From NCBI GenBank assembly GCA_035629175.1, contig DASPIL010000066.1, positions 1 through 64,000 on the forward strand: a stretch of 64,000 bases of DNA, given 5' to 3'. This DNA is from Verrucomicrobiia bacterium. GTDB taxonomy: Bacteria; Verrucomicrobiota; Verrucomicrobiia; Limisphaerales; DASXHY01. The notes under the pieces were generated by a model. The model searched no databases and was not told the DNA's origin. It saw only the letters and a program-made list of their open reading frames with translations. Positions 688 through 49,384 of this stretch are shown here, piece by piece. Position 1 is the stretch's first letter. Each line of letters begins with the position of its first letter. The position numbers were made by a program, and so were the translations under genes.

Positions 688-3600
688 ATGAAAAGCTATC
701 ACCTGAAGACACGTTTGTGCGTTGTCGCGGCCGCTTTGGTCATCGGAAGTCCGCAGCTCAAGGCCGATCTTGTGGGACCTTACACGCCTGACGCCAACAC
801 GCTCTTTCTCTTTCACTTCAACGAACCCGCAGGCTCCTCAGCCACGGTGAACGCAGGTTCCAAGGGCGGCAATTCATACACGGTTCAGAACGACACGGCT
901 GGCACTGGGCAGCCGAATCCTCCCGCAGTGACGGACCTGCTCGGCGCGGCCGGCTATTCCAGCGGTCCAATCAATTTCGGAAACAGCGCGAACTTCCACA
1001 CAGCCGGATACCTGATTGGATACGACTTCAATGCGAATGGCGCCTACGAAGCCGATGTGCAGGGCGGACCCGTGAGTCCCGATCGCTTCGCGATGACCAA
1101 CTTGAACGTGGGAAATGGAGGGCAATCCCCTTTCACGATCGAGGCGCTGGTTGCGCCCACCCGCATTGACGGCGCGCAGCAGGAGATTGTCTGCACCGAC
1201 AGCTACGCGGGGGCGAACCGCGGATTCCAATTCCGCATCGTGGGCAGCCAGTTGCAGCTTCAGATGCTCGACGGCGCAACATTCTTCAATTCGTCGGCCC
1301 CCATTCCGACCACGGGGCCGCACGGGTTCACGAATGGTTTTTGGTATCACGTGGCGATCACGTACGACGGGTCATCTGTGAAGCTCTACTGGACCCGGTT
1401 AGATCCGAGCGTGAATGCCGCGAACCAGATTTCATCCGAAAATCGCGTGATCACCACGGGTCATGGAAACGTCCTGGCTCCGCTGGTTTTTGGAAATGAC
1501 AACCGTGGTGCATCCAGCGAAATGTTTTCAGGCAGCATCGATGAGTTGCGGATCAGCAATGTTGCGCGCGGGCCCGGCCAGATGCAGTTCTTCTCGCCTG
1601 CGGTGACCATCGTTGCGAATCCCATCAGCCAGAACATCGATTACACCGAAACCGTCCGGTTCTCCGTCGTTGCCGCAAGTCCGACCCCAATGGGTTTTCA
1701 ATGGCGTTTCGATGGCAATCCAATTTCGGGGGCGAACAGCAATGTTTATGTGATTTCACAAGTGGGTGCTGCGAATGCCGGGCTTTACGATGTCGTCGTT
1801 ACGAACTCTGCGGGCTTTGCTTCAACGAGCGCACCGGCGAATCTCGTTGTCGGCGCAGCCAACTTCCTGGCGCATCGCTATAGCTTCAACGGCAATCTCA
1901 ATGACAGCGTTGGCACGGCCCATGGCACCAACTTCGGGAATGCAACCGTGGTCGACGGCGCGCTCGTCCTCGACGGAACTGACAGCACCTACGCGCAATT
2001 GCCGGGCGGCCTGCTTGCGGGGTTGAACTCTGCGACTGTGGATTTCTGGGCAACGATCGGGACGACTCCGACTTCGTCACGCATCTTCGATTTCGGCAAC
2101 AGCCTGCCCGATTTCACGAGTGCGATCGTTGGGTTCAACTATCTGTTTTTCACCCCGAATTCCGGTGGAGCCCATCGGCTGACGATTTCTTCGGGCGACG
2201 TTTCGTTCGAGCAGAATGCCGCGGGCACGGGCACGCTGGAGAATCAGACGGTGCACGTCACGTGCGTGGTCGATCCTCCCAACCAGAGAATGCTGCTCTA
2301 CACGAATGGCGTCCTGGAAACGATCAACACGAACATGACCGCGCCTCTGTCGTCGCTGAATAACGTGCTGACCTATCTTGGCCGCTCTCTGTATGCGGTT
2401 GATCCGTATCTCAACGGCAGCATCGATGAGTTCCGCATCTACAACGGCGCGCTGTCGCCGATCACCGTGCAGCAGAATCACGAACAGGGGCCAAACATTG
2501 TTCTCAGCGATGGTCCCGTGGATTTCGTCGTGAACCCGGTCAGCACAAACATTCCTGTCGGCCAGACGGCGACCTTCACGGCAACTGCGGTCGGTTACCT
2601 GCCGATTCGGTATCAATGGTATAAGGGCGGTGTCCTGGTGCCGGGCGCGACGAATGCAAGCTACAGCCTCGTGTCGCAGCTGGCGGACAATGGCACATCG
2701 ATCCAGGTCTTCGCCACCAATGTGATTGGCTCAACCGTGTATTCCGATGCAAGCACCGTGGCGACGCTGAACACCTTTGTGCCGCCGACGCTTGTCTGGC
2801 TGGGCGCATCGCATGGCGACTGGGATATGGCCTCGCTCAACTGGACGAACCTCGCGGGCGGCGCCCTGACGGCTTACACCTCCTTCGCATCGGCTCTGTT
2901 TGATGCTCGTGGCAGCGCGGCACCGACGGTTAACGTAACGCAGCCCGTGAACCCGGATTTGCTGACGGTGAATTCCGGATCCGATTATCTGATCACGTCG
3001 TTTGCCTTGAATGGTTCTCTTGTCGGGCAGGGCCGGCTGGTGAAGCAGGGAGCAGGAAGGCTTACGATCGATGTCACCAACAATATGTCGGGCGGAATCT
3101 TGATTTCCGCAGGCACGTTGCAGATTGGAAATGGCACGGGCACGGGAACGCTAGGAGGCGGTGCGGTCACCAACAACAGCGTCCTCGCGTTCAACCGCGG
3201 GGATACGCTGGCAGTTCCGAATGCCATCACAGGCTCAGGTTCAGTGCGCCAGGATGGCAGCGGTGCGGCCGCGCTTTCCGGGAACAACACCTACACGGGC
3301 CAAACGCTCGTGAACAGCGGCGTGATGTTCGTGCAGAGCAGCAACGCGCTGGGAGCCACCTCAGCCGGCACGGTCGTGGCCGCGGGCGCGCAGGTGTACA
3401 TCACTGCCAACGTGAATCTCAGCGGCGAAGCGCTGACGATCAGCGGATCGGGCGCCGACAGTTCGGGATCACTTCGCAAGGGCGGAGCCGGAGCCACTAC
3501 GCTCGGCGGACCCATTGCGCTGGCTGCGGACGCAACCGTGGGAGTGGACGGAGGCGCCGTGCTGACCGTCAGCAACTCGGTTTCAGGCGCTGCGATTCTT

Positions 3601-5100: not shown

Positions 5101-5895
5101 ATGAAACACAGACTCAAACAGAACATGGGAGCGTCCCTGGTGCTCGCGGTTATCGCCTCATCGGCGGCAGCGGCCAGTGCGCAGATCACAATCTATTCGG
5201 ACAACTTCAGCGGGAGCGGCGGGGCATTAAACGGCAGCGCTGTTGATGTCGGCGGCCAGAACTGGCAGGCGGGAAGCGCGTTCCTCGACAACGGAACAGT
5301 TAACACCGTTGTCGCTGCTTCCGCGAACGGCCAGGCCGCCTGGCTGCCGTTTGCCCCCGTAAACGGAACTGTTTACACGGCGACGGCAACCATCCTGAAC
5401 ACAAATCCCGATTGGATTGCGTTCGGATTCATGCCGGCGCTTCCGGTCGGTGGCGACTGGACGGCAACTGACTTCGGCGTGCGTCACTCCAACAGCGGTG
5501 CACACGCGTGGGGTTTTTCGCGAAACAACGCGACGCAGAATGACCAGGAGTTCTTCAATGGCGTCAATACCAGCAACAACACGGGTCTTGGCGGGAATCT
5601 TGCAGATCCGGCGAATCCGATCACGCTGGGAATTGTTCTGGACACGACTGGCGCAACGTGGACTGCGCAGTATTTCTTGAACGGGGTGCAGCAGGGTGGC
5701 TCGTTCAATCTTCCAGCTACCGCGAACACAGGCATCGGAGGTATCGGTTTCAGCCGCGACCGCAACGCAACTGCAGGCACCGGCGGTGTGATCTCTGCCT
5801 TCTCCCTGACACAGGTTCCCGAGCCCACCACGTTTGCGATGCTGGCACTAGGGGCTAGTTTGCTTGGGATGCGGCTGCGCCGGAACTTGAAGTAG
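5101..5895 (+). CDS. PEP-CTERM sorting domain protein
   Basis: A 264-residue exported protein. The signal peptide runs to about Ala27 (AAAASA). The body is a beta-rich, Asn/Gly-rich domain (about 28-235) of the kind seen in PEP-CTERM proteins, starting ITIYSDNFSG. The C-terminus (239-264) is a canonical PEP-CTERM tail: VPEPTTFAML, a hydrophobic stretch, then a basic end (RLRRNLK). Such tails are recognised by an exosortase (EpsH/XrtA family), which is not in this window, and target proteins to the outer surface or exopolysaccharide matrix. The gene sits 33 bp after the giant surface protein and 81 bp before a prepilin-like gene, so the three may be co-transcribed. The role of the body domain is unknown. 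Confidence 0.88.
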   Translation: MKHRLKQNMGASLVLAVIASSAAAASAQITIYSDNFSGSGGALNGSAVDVGGQNWQAGSAFLDNGTVNTVVAASANGQAAWLPFAPVNGTVYTATATILNTNPDWIAFGFMPALPVGGDWTATDFGVRHSNSGAHAWGFSRNNATQNDQEFFNGVNTSNNTGLGGNLADPANPITLGIVLDTTGATWTAQYFLNGVQQGGSFNLPATANTGIGGIGFSRDRNATAGTGGVISAFSLTQVPEPTTFAMLALGASLLGMRLRRNLK

Positions 5896-44869: not shown

Positions 44870-44899
44870 GAGGATTCCCGCTGGAAAGCGGGAATCCTC
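44870..44899 (+). terminator. Terminator after the mini sorting-tail protein
   Basis: A perfect 13-bp stem, GAGGATTCCCGCT (44870-44882) with AGCGGGAATCCTC (44887-44899), encloses a GGAA tetraloop. It is followed by GGTTTCG, so the T tract is poor. Its position 13 bp after a stop codon supports termination. Confidence 0.78.
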
Positions 44900-44962: not shown

Positions 44963-47900
44963 ATGAAAACAATCCAGTCACTCCGGGCGCTTTTTCTCGG
45001 CCTACTTTTACCTTTCGCTACTGTTCCCACAACCCAAGCCATGACGAATGGCTGCTGCCTTGAACTCCCGGCCATTCCGAATAACGAGGCGGATGGTTTG
45101 GTAAAGGTCGCTTGGGGCAATCAACCTAATTTTCCAGGAGTTGCTCCGGAATTCAGCTGGTTTACCGTCGACATTCAGCCGGGCGGACCAGGCGTTCCAA
45201 CGCCACCGATTCCCGCTGGCCGCTATGCCGCGTGGTGTTTCGATGTCGCGACCGAGCTCGCCCCGCCTCCCAATGGAATCCTCTTCGGCGGCTATTTGTT
45301 TTCCAGTTGCGATCCCTCCGTTGCGTTCAATCAGTACCTCCCCGGTCACCCGAACGTGCAAAAAGATGCCGCAACATGGAAACGCATCAATTACCTGATA
45401 AACCATCGGTTTCAAGCATGTGGTGGTCTTGTACCCCGGATGTGGGAAGTGCAACGCGCGATCTGGACGCTCATGGGTCAGCCCCTTACGACTGTTCCCA
45501 GTCCGCCGTATCCTCCTTATAGGGCTAACGTAGTTCAATGCCTGGTTGACAGTGCCATTGCGAATGCTCCGAGCTGGCAACTATCCTGCGGCGACAAAAT
45601 CGCTGTTATTTACAACGTCGATGTAAACTGGGACACAGTCGCGCCTGAAGTTCAGCTTATCTTCCTTGAAGTCCCGTACTGCCCCCCGATCAGCTGCCCG
45701 CCCGACGTCACAGTTAATTGCGAACAGGTCGCAAGCGGCGCGCTCACGAACCTGACACTCCTCGGCCAACCCACCACCGATCCTTGCTGCCCGATCACAA
45801 ATCGGTACGTTGATGTGATCACCCCCGGCAACTGCCCGAACAGCTACACGATCACGCGCACCTGGACTTCGATTATTTCCTGCGCAACGAAGACATGCGT
45901 GCAAACGATCACAGTCGTCGACAACACGCCTCCCACCCTGACGGTTCCCCAAGGTGCCGCTTTGGGATGTAATCCGACCCTCGTTCCGACCGACGATCTC
46001 ATTCGATCCCTCGTGACAGCGACTGACCTCTGCGGCCAGGTGATCACCAACGTTTCACACATTGATGAACCGAACGGTTGTAGCATTACCCGCACGTTCA
46101 CCGTGACTGCTGTCGACGAATGCGGCAACACCGCAGGTCCGAAGACAATCGTCTTCACGTGGAAGGTCGACAAGGAAGCTCCTGTTCTGATCGGTCTGCC
46201 CCCGGCAACCGCGACATATTCCTGTGAGATGCCGGTCCCTGCGGCTCCGACAGTCACCGCGCTGGACAACTGCGATACCAATCTCACGGTCCATTTCACC
46301 GAAACGCCCTCTGGCGACGCCTGCAGCCGCACCCTTACGCGTGTCTGGTCTGCGGTGGACGGCTGCGGAAACCCTGTTTCGTTCACCCAGGTAGTCACCG
46401 TTCGTGACACCACGGGTCCTGTGCTGACGATCCCCGACAATGTTGAAGTTGAGTGTGATTCCATCCCTGAAGTCGGCATCGCCACCGCGACCGACAACTG
46501 CGACAGCAATCCTGTCATCACATTCGTTGGCGAAACCAACATGCTCCAGAGCTGCACGAACTTCCTGCTGCGCACCTGGAAGGCAGTGGATGCTTGCGGC
46601 AATCCTTCGTTCAAGACCCAGACCATCACATTGGTCGACACCACGGCGCCTGTGCTCGACGGCGTCCCGGATGATGTAGCGGTCGAATGCACGGATGTGC
46701 CCGCAGTTCCGGAAGTGACCGCGACGGATGCGTGTGACACGAACACGATCGCTGTCATCTTCAGCCAGTTGCGCACCAACGGCGACTGCACCAACAACTA
46801 CACGCTTCTGCGCACCTGGATTGCCACGGACATCTGCGGCAACTCCGTCACCAACACGCAGACGATCGTCGTGACGGATACAACAGAGCCTGTGATTACC
46901 GCGCCGGCCGACCGGACAGTCGAGTGCGGCCAGTCCTGGGCCTTCGGAAATCCGACGGCAACCGACACTTGCGGCAAAGCCGTTGTGACCATCCTCGGCA
47001 CCGAAACGAATCGCACGGGCTGCGGTTTTACGGCCACGCGCACATGGGTCGCGACCGACGCCTGCGGTAACACTGCGACAGCGACACAAACGGTCTCGGT
47101 TGTTGATAACACTCCTCCCGTGATCACGTGCAGCCCGAACAAGACGGTTGCCTGCGGCTCAGCCCTGTCGTTCGACGCTCCGACGGCGACTGATAATTGC
47201 GGCACAGTCACGATCAAGATCATCAGCACTGTGACAGCAACGAACAAATGCGTCGTCACATCCACGCGCACCTGGAAAGCCACAGATGCTTGCGGCAACG
47301 TTGCGCAATGCAGCCAGACGCTGACCAGCGATTGCGGATCACTCTGCGTCAAGAAGGTCTTCAAGTTCGACGGCAGCACGTCGTCCTACGGAACCTGCGG
47401 AAACGTCCGCACCTACACGGTCAACGGCCTCTCAGTCCGCGTTAGCGCATTCAGCCGCGTGAAATCGACCGGCGCATGGGCAACGGCGTTCCTCGGAGCG
47501 TATAGCGGCGGGCTTGGCGTGACCGACACCAGTGAAGGCACAGGTTCCGGCAACTCGCACACGGTTGATAACATTGGCCGCGACAACTTTGTCCTGTTCG
47601 AATTCTCGGAGCCCGTCGCTGTCAAGAAGGCGACCCTCGGCTACGTGGTTGATGACAGTGACTTCATGCTCTGGGTCGGCAACTTCGCCAATCCTTACGC
47701 CAACCACATGACGCTGAGCGATGCCCTTCTGGGAAGTTTCTCGCATGTTGAGACAAACCTGACGGGCAGCTCCTCGGCCCGCACGGCCCTGTTCAACAAC
47801 GACGACGTCGTCGGGAATGCGTTCGTCGTGGCAGCACTGCCGGGCACGAGCTGGTGCGATGATCAATTCAAGATCTCGATGCTCGAGATTTGCCAGAGCA

Positions 47901-49384
47901 CCTGCGAACCGCCTCCTCCTCCATGCTCGGGAAGCATCTGCGGCAAGATCCTTCGCGACTGCAATGCCGACGGATCGCTCTACGGCGAAGAAGGCCTGGA
48001 AGGCATGACCGTCAAGTTGCGCAATTCGGCTGGAACGATCGTGGGTTCCACAATGAGTGAGCCCGATGGCGAGTTCTGCTTCAGCGGCCTCAGCGCCGGA
48101 TCCTACACGGTTGAAGTCGTCCCTGGCGACTACTGCCAGACCTACGACCCCGATTCATACAAGAACGACAAGACCACGGTTACGCTCGGTGCGTGCGAGG
48201 CGAAGAGCGGCATCAAGTTCGGTTACACGGGAACAGATGCTTCGGTTTACCTGGTCAAGACTGGTCCGGCCACCGCCAAGGTGGGCGAAACCATCACGTT
48301 CAAGTTCGCCGTGACCAACACGGGCAACACCTGCCTCTACGGCGGCATGAGCATCTATGATCCGATGCTGGGCGGAACGATCTGGCAGCAGAGCCCTGTT
48401 GTTCCGGGCGAAGGATTCGTCATCACCAAGACCTACACGGTGAAATCCACCGATCCAAAACTGTTGTGCAACACAGCGACTGCCATCGGCCACCCGCCGA
48501 CCGGTTACGCGGTGAAGCATCAGTCCAGCTGGACAGTATCCATCAGCAATGTTGCGTCGCTGCCGAAGCCGAACTGCCCAGTGGTGCAATCCGGCAACTG
48601 CTACGTGAAGCTGAACTTCAGCGGCATCTCTGGGTGCACGAGCTTCAAGATCAAGCGCTCCCTGACGTCGGGTGGACCTTACACCGTCATCAAGAGCGGT
48701 TATACCTCGACCAGCTATACGGACACGACCTGCGACAACGGGAAGCTGTATTACTATGTGATCTCCTGCATGGTGAACGGCGTCGAAAGCCCGAACTCGG
48801 ATGAGGCATGCGCGGTGCCGAGCGCCGGATTGCCGAGCCCGTGGCAGACCCGCGACATCGGTAATGTCGGCTTGTCAGGCAACGCCAGCTACGCCTCCGG
48901 CACGCGCAAGTTCACGCTCATCGGTTCCGGAGAAGACATCTGGAACGGTTCGGATGAATTCCGCTTCGCCTACCAGGTCGCCAGCGGCAACTGCACCATC
49001 GTGGCCCGGGTGGCCAGCGTTGGAAACACCGACCCATGGGCGAAGGCCGGCATCATGATCCGTGACAACCTCACGTCCGGATCGGAGCACGCCTCACTGT
49101 TCGTGACGCCTGGGAATGGTGTTGCGGCCCAATACCGCGACAACACTGGCGGCAGCAGCGAAAACGTGAACACCACCGGCCTATCGGCGCCTTACTGGGT
49201 GAAGCTGATTCGCAGTGGAAACACATTCACTGCCTATCGCTCAGCGAATGGATCTTCCTGGACCCACATCGGATCCAAGACGATCTACATGTCGAGCACC
49301 GTCTACATCGGCCTGGCGGTCACCAGCCATAAGGACGGCACAGCGTGCACGGCCACGTTTGATAACGTGACGGTCTCGCCTTAA
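44963..49384 (+). CDS. Giant Cys-rich surface protein with thioester-like (TED) head and HYR repeats
   Basis: A 1473-residue exported protein. The signal peptide ends near Ala26. Residues about 45-200 fit the thioester domain plan: Cys92 in AAWCFDVATEL, WKRINYLINH, and Gln164 in EVQRAIWTLMGQ, the pair that forms an internal thioester in Gram-positive TED adhesins. About seven Cys-rich HYR-like modules (about 240-790) follow, with motifs VTATDxCD, TRTWxAxDxCGN and VVDTTxPV. A beta domain lies at about 794-985, an SdrD-B-like module at about 988-1088 (CGKILRDCNADGSLYGEEGL), a DUF11-like module at about 1089-1195, FN3 at about 1202-1285, and a concanavalin-like end at about 1292-1473 (FRFAYQVASGNCTIVARVAS). 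No sorting tail is present. It is ended by a strong terminator. The thioester is inferred from motif spacing. Confidence 0.82.
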   Translation: MKTIQSLRALFLGLLLPFATVPTTQAMTNGCCLELPAIPNNEADGLVKVAWGNQPNFPGVAPEFSWFTVDIQPGGPGVPTPPIPAGRYAAWCFDVATELAPPPNGILFGGYLFSSCDPSVAFNQYLPGHPNVQKDAATWKRINYLINHRFQACGGLVPRMWEVQRAIWTLMGQPLTTVPSPPYPPYRANVVQCLVDSAIANAPSWQLSCGDKIAVIYNVDVNWDTVAPEVQLIFLEVPYCPPISCPPDVTVNCEQVASGALTNLTLLGQPTTDPCCPITNRYVDVITPGNCPNSYTITRTWTSIISCATKTCVQTITVVDNTPPTLTVPQGAALGCNPTLVPTDDLIRSLVTATDLCGQVITNVSHIDEPNGCSITRTFTVTAVDECGNTAGPKTIVFTWKVDKEAPVLIGLPPATATYSCEMPVPAAPTVTALDNCDTNLTVHFTETPSGDACSRTLTRVWSAVDGCGNPVSFTQVVTVRDTTGPVLTIPDNVEVECDSIPEVGIATATDNCDSNPVITFVGETNMLQSCTNFLLRTWKAVDACGNPSFKTQTITLVDTTAPVLDGVPDDVAVECTDVPAVPEVTATDACDTNTIAVIFSQLRTNGDCTNNYTLLRTWIATDICGNSVTNTQTIVVTDTTEPVITAPADRTVECGQSWAFGNPTATDTCGKAVVTILGTETNRTGCGFTATRTWVATDACGNTATATQTVSVVDNTPPVITCSPNKTVACGSALSFDAPTATDNCGTVTIKIISTVTATNKCVVTSTRTWKATDACGNVAQCSQTLTSDCGSLCVKKVFKFDGSTSSYGTCGNVRTYTVNGLSVRVSAFSRVKSTGAWATAFLGAYSGGLGVTDTSEGTGSGNSHTVDNIGRDNFVLFEFSEPVAVKKATLGYVVDDSDFMLWVGNFANPYANHMTLSDALLGSFSHVETNLTGSSSARTALFNNDDVVGNAFVVAALPGTSWCDDQFKISMLEICQSTCEPPPPPCSGSICGKILRDCNADGSLYGEEGLEGMTVKLRNSAGTIVGSTMSEPDGEFCFSGLSAGSYTVEVVPGDYCQTYDPDSYKNDKTTVTLGACEAKSGIKFGYTGTDASVYLVKTGPATAKVGETITFKFAVTNTGNTCLYGGMSIYDPMLGGTIWQQSPVVPGEGFVITKTYTVKSTDPKLLCNTATAIGHPPTGYAVKHQSSWTVSISNVASLPKPNCPVVQSGNCYVKLNFSGISGCTSFKIKRSLTSGGPYTVIKSGYTSTSYTDTTCDNGKLYYYVISCMVNGVESPNSDEACAVPSAGLPSPWQTRDIGNVGLSGNASYASGTRKFTLIGSGEDIWNGSDEFRFAYQVASGNCTIVARVASVGNTDPWAKAGIMIRDNLTSGSEHASLFVTPGNGVAAQYRDNTGGSSENVNTTGLSAPYWVKLIRSGNTFTAYRSANGSSWTHIGSKTIYMSSTVYIGLAVTSHKDGTACTATFDNVTVSP

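Follow-up and report, generated by a model that had tools for sequence, protein, structure and literature searches.

The amino-terminal domain of a secreted, fibrillar protein from an uncultured verrucomicrobial bacterium is most probably a class I-like thioester domain (TED), located at the tip of the protein and carrying an internal thioester between Cys92 and Gln231. We give this reading a probability of about 0.82. The protein P0001 is encoded in the window, the stretch of 64,000 nucleotides of DNA that was analysed, and starts with the Sec-type signal MKTIQSLRALFLGLLLPFATVPTTQA. Its features are collected in Table 1. The original prediction had placed a TED-like thioester head on a Gram-negative-type secreted protein with a Cys-rich stalk, and its motifs were all found: WCFD at residues 91-94, INYLINH at 142-148 and VQRAIW at 163-168, with a spacing of 72 residues between Cys92 and Gln164. 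The secretion signal, the Cys-rich repeats and the downstream SdrD-B-like and DUF11-like modules (the latter being DUF7507) were also recovered, and the ConA-like module gave a weak match. The head itself is supported by the fold comparison and by conservation. A third invariant motif at the end of the domain had been overlooked, VQLIF at residues 230-234, which contains Gln231.

Table 1. Features of the gene and its protein (window positions)
Feature	Position	Strand	Size or evidence
Whole gene, secreted multidomain protein P0001	44963..49384	+	1473 aa, ORF translation
Signal peptide, residues 1-26	44963..45040	+	Sequence; cleavage site inferred by eye
Class I-like TED (predicted), residues 27-240	45041..45682	+	AlphaFold pLDDT 82, pTM 0.85; PDB fold matches all TEDs
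Cys92 of WCFD, predicted thioester Cys	45236..45238	+	Invariant in 31/31 relatives; sole domain Cys in some
Asn147 of the INYLINH helix, invariant	45401..45403	+	31/31 relatives; A3 column N121
Gln164 of EVQRAIW, helix TQxxΦW type; predicted hydrogen bond at the thioester, non-bonding	45452..45454	+	31/31 relatives; PMC4450167, PMC6194298
Gln231 of VQLIFLEVP, last β-strand, predicted thioester-forming	45653..45655	+	31/31 relatives; aligned-range ends on solved TEDs
Cys-rich HYR_4C/HYR repeats, stalk	45683..47332	+	PF23237 E 7e-33; PF02494
XDP1-like region (exosortase-dependent surface protein), residues 794-984	47342..47914	+	NCBIfam NF041927 62 bits, E 7e-17; below whole-protein cut-off of 125
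SdrD_B, residues 995-1062	47945..48148	+	PF17210 E 3e-10
DUF7507 (CLIPPER_2), residues 1094-1186, predicted isopeptide-bond stalk domain	48242..48520	+	PF24346 E 3.5e-11
ConA/DUF1349-like domain, C-terminal	48830..49381	+	PF07081 E 1.7e-4, below cut-off

The structure of residues 27-245 was modelled with AlphaFold, which gave a pLDDT of 82 and a pTM of 0.85 from a shallow alignment of 14 sequences, TED structures having already been seen by AlphaFold. When the model was compared to the PDB with Foldseek, ranks 1-16 were all TED chains (best E 4.8e-5). VIA-align returned 13 TED entries with Z scores from 12.1 to 8.4, and the next, unrelated entry scored 2.2. The best match was 5a0g (Z 12.1, rmsd 3.4, 162 residues aligned), followed by Cpa (11.2), BaTIE (9.7), SfbI (9.6), PnTIE (9.1) and SaTIE (8.4). 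A second model was made for the acidobacterial relative L017a, which is 28% identical. It matched the same TED family with Z scores of 9.5-6.6 and a best unrelated score of 3.9; the two models are not fully independent because their alignments have members in common. Both models contain the β-barrel and the three-helix bundle of the TED fold. In the window model four strands are followed by three main helices and two strands, an order that fits class I. Helix α3 ends at model residue 178 and the next strand starts at residue 186, and with only about 7 residues between them the class II insert is absent. Where class I TEDs have helix α0, between strand D and α1, there is just a helix of 5 residues (model residues 93-97).

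By sequence, the domain is far from the known family. The original prediction had pointed to PF08341, and here it failed: the window protein is not a member at the curated cut-off of 22 bits and showed no match even at E 10. TQXA did not match it either, the Pfam search found nothing within residues 1-251, and sequence searches with the domain alone against Pfam, NCBIfam and PDB yielded nothing useful. Among 29 relatives, PF08341 was the commonest Pfam match, with 6 members, all below the cut-off (best E 0.014). The best score among the relatives checked was 15.9 bits, and the matched stretches in the checked members begin at the Cys motif or span the helix motif. TIGR03934 (TQXA) matched 3 of the 29, with a best E of 0.0017. 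As judged from these sequence matches, distant homology to PF08341 is likely, and formal membership fails. A profile of 14 sequences searched against PDB placed the SaTIE TED second (E 0.57) in the expected register; this match was given no weight because it was no longer found with the 29-sequence profile. In a local hhalign comparison with class II plasmid TEDs (Bacillus and relatives), the Cys motif was the only part that aligned. Given that PF08341 does not match the window protein and scores below the cut-off in the six relatives, the domain belongs to a divergent TED branch of diderm bacteria that is class I-like.

The order, the phylum and a public genome set were searched for this branch. 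Of 320 genomes from the same order, 22 carried it, and it also occurred in two MAGs that their record titles assign to Terriglobia (Acidobacteriota) and to Deltaproteobacteria; the relatives from the contig set are likewise MAGs by their titles. When 199 genomes were sampled from the phylum to which the Terriglobia MAG belongs, this MAG was the only one with the domain. A tblastn search of plasmids with the window domain, two relatives and one verrucomicrobial PF08341 domain as queries found nothing. Among 288 genomes of the verrucomicrobial phylum, 3 had a match to PF08341 itself above the cut-off, so TEDs are not wholly unprecedented in Verrucomicrobiota. One of these cases, L019, looks Firmicutes-like by its CnaB-type context and could be a contamination. 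Our literature search, which had incomplete coverage, found no report of TEDs in Verrucomicrobiota, Acidobacteriota or deltaproteobacteria. Two further proteins were observed. In L013, the ORF from position 1255 (+) encodes a single giant protein in which some 1800 residues separate two TED-like domains. In L024, from the relative genome G311, positions 1258-1935 (+) encode a 226-residue PEP-CTERM protein with the motifs AFCVEP, AAVQWAIWEV and YQNVV and a PF08341 match of E 0.005, below the cut-off. It may represent a further TED-like branch that depends on exosortase for its display.

TIE proteins (thioester, isopeptide, ester) combine a TED head with a stalk that contains isopeptide or ester domains. 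In the window protein, DUF7507 could take this part, a family that was renamed CLIPPER_2 and is a predicted isopeptide-bond carrier (PMC12617251). Its candidate residues, assigned by motif, are Lys1099, Asp1133 and Asn1170. Their order agrees with the Lys-Asp-Asn sequence of residues in the solved CLIPPER domain, and the pattern is also present in the relative L011. At the C-terminus, which ends with ...TATFDNVTVSP, neither the LPXTG sortase anchor usual in TIE proteins nor a PEP-CTERM signal was found. PEP-CTERM matches that pass the cut-off number 29 in the same genome, and one PEP-CTERM protein is encoded in the window at 5101-5895 with its tail at 5812-5883. The XDP1-like region stands in a protein that has no PEP-CTERM tail, although such a tail would be expected of the XDP1 family. 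A PEP-CTERM-like tail, REPSSLLLLATGLLGLLSVW, was observed in the deltaproteobacterial relative L016 (1-863, +). Six copies of the C-terminal ConA-like domain occur in the same genome with 28-47% identity to the copy in P0001, and the relative in L009 ends in a similar domain. Just upstream of the gene, at 44870-44899, lies a perfect 12-bp inverted repeat, GAGGATTCCCGC-tggaaa-GCGGGAATCCTC, that has no clear T run.

We propose that Cys92 in a β-strand of the barrel and Gln231 in the last strand would condense with loss of ammonia to a buried internal thioester. The central-helix residues Gln164 and Trp168 would be packed against this bond and make hydrogen bonds to the backbone of the Cys. HYR_4C, SdrD_B and CLIPPER_2 would form a stalk, stiffened by disulphides and probably by isopeptides, that keeps the head off the cell. 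A primary amine or another nucleophile on a target surface could then open the thioester, which would leave the protein covalently joined via Gln231. A working thioester between Cys92 and Gln231 is likely; that it serves to join the protein covalently to a foreign target is plausible, at roughly even odds, and the attachment to a host, alga or matrix named in the original prediction would be of this kind. The thioester might instead form and have no role at foreign surfaces, cross-linking neighbouring proteins in the matrix or sheath of its own species or serving cell-cell contact. The TED that is needed for efficient conjugation of the Bacillus subtilis plasmid pLS20 (PMC8092201) is a precedent for such a role, and the relatives are environmental MAGs, but the layout of head plus stalk resembles the TIE adhesins, and we regard this alternative as rather unlikely. 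Returning to attachment outside the species, we tentatively suggest a diderm family, comprising the Verrucomicrobiota, Acidobacteriota and deltaproteobacterial MAG relatives, with a thioester head, an isopeptide-locked stalk and sortase-free display that fixes free-living cells to environmental polymers.

The conservation of the domain was analysed in an alignment of 33 domains, of which 31 are informative at each key column; the relatives come from Verrucomicrobiota, an Acidobacteriota MAG and a deltaproteobacterial MAG. Only four columns show no variation at all: the Cys of the WC motif (Cys92), an Asn of the first helix (Asn147), the helix Gln (Gln164) and the terminal Gln (Gln231), each conserved 31 out of 31 times, although these related sequences are not 31 independent events. 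On this alignment, the conservation of Cys92 and Gln164 is not a matter of chance. The Trp168 column of the helix motif is Trp in 24 of the 31. The distance from the Cys to the terminal Gln varies from 103 to 149 residues among the relatives, and the window protein has 139 from residue 92 to residue 231; from the residue numbers, the same spacing is 129 in CpTIE, 152 in SfbI and 153 in PnTIE. A common fold proves no function, and the domain could be a binding or structural head that has no thioester and puts Cys92 to another use, such as a disulphide. This would be chemically possible in such a Cys-rich domain (Cys31, 32, 92, 116, 153, 193, 209 and 240). The other Cys columns are variable, however, whereas Cys92 is invariant, and its counterpart is the sole Cys of the mature domain in three relatives (L046, L049 and L017a), which argues against a disulphide. 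A disulphide would also leave the strict co-conservation with the terminal Gln unexplained, and we consider this reading improbable.

The preferred reading, a thioester between Cys92 and Gln231, departs from the original prediction in the choice of the glutamine. The TED motifs described by Walden et al. (PMC4450167) and Miller et al. (PMC6194298) are one around the Cys, a TQxxΦW motif in a helix and, in a β-strand, the Gln that forms the bond; the Gln and Trp of the helical motif are not essential for the thioester (same references). The solved pairs are Cys138-Gln267 in CpTIE, Cys109-Gln261 in SfbI and Cys94-Gln247 in PnTIE. In the window protein, WCFD corresponds to the TED motif [YFL]C-hydrophobic-hydrophilic only when W replaces Y/F/L, and EVQRAIW is of the TQxxΦW type, found in most but not all TEDs, with V replacing the leading T. 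The last β-strand, PEVQLIFLEVP, carries Gln231. In the structural alignments Gln231 (model residue 205) falls on Gln267 of 5a0g, Gln261 of 5a0l and Gln247 of 5a0n, a register that was deduced from where the aligned ranges end and assumes a gap-free last strand. By the same aligned-range ends, Gln167 of L017a falls on these three residues, and the alignment to 5a0d is one residue out of register in both models. Gln164, the bonding partner proposed originally, is invariant and its equivalent adjoins the thioester in solved TEDs (PMC4450167), but it was rejected as highly improbable, given that the cited TEDs bond via the Gln of the last strand and Gln231 is equally invariant and matches this position in three of them.

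Thioester adhesins have so far been described as a Gram-positive feature, mostly in pathogens. If the bond forms as predicted, covalent adhesion of the TED kind has a wider distribution than has been assumed. A branch of uncultured Verrucomicrobiota and further diderms that shares this predicted reactive centre would bring it to free-living Gram-negative-type bacteria and raise the question of what its members bind. The named residues Cys92 and Gln231 allow a sharp test, and the domain offers a fresh start for protein-ligation tools.

Compared to known systems, the complement proteins C3/C4 and α-2-macroglobulin use the Cys-Gln thioester chemistry that is predicted here but are unrelated in fold and sequence (PMC6194298). 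The stalk is like the DUF7507/CLIPPER_2 isopeptide domains in its PF24346 match and its candidate Lys, Asp and Asn, and unlike them in that the window protein has only one copy, with a predicted bond. The class II TEDs (BaTIE 6fwv, EfmTIE86 6fwy, SaTIE 6fx6 and the pLS20 TIE) share the fold of the upper lobe (Z 9.7-8.4), whereas their β-sandwich insert between α3 and strand P is absent from the window domain. The class I TEDs (CpTIE 5a0g, SfbI 5a0l, PnTIE 5a0n and Cpa 2xi9) differ by a sequence identity of only 8-14% in the structural alignments, by PF08341, which does not match the window protein, and by its WC instead of [YFL]C, its diderm host, its extra cysteines and its lack of LPXTG. Yet they have in common with it the fold (Z 12.1-9.1), the order of Cys strand, helix Q motif and terminal-strand Gln, and the amino-terminal place behind the signal peptide as a head on a stalk.
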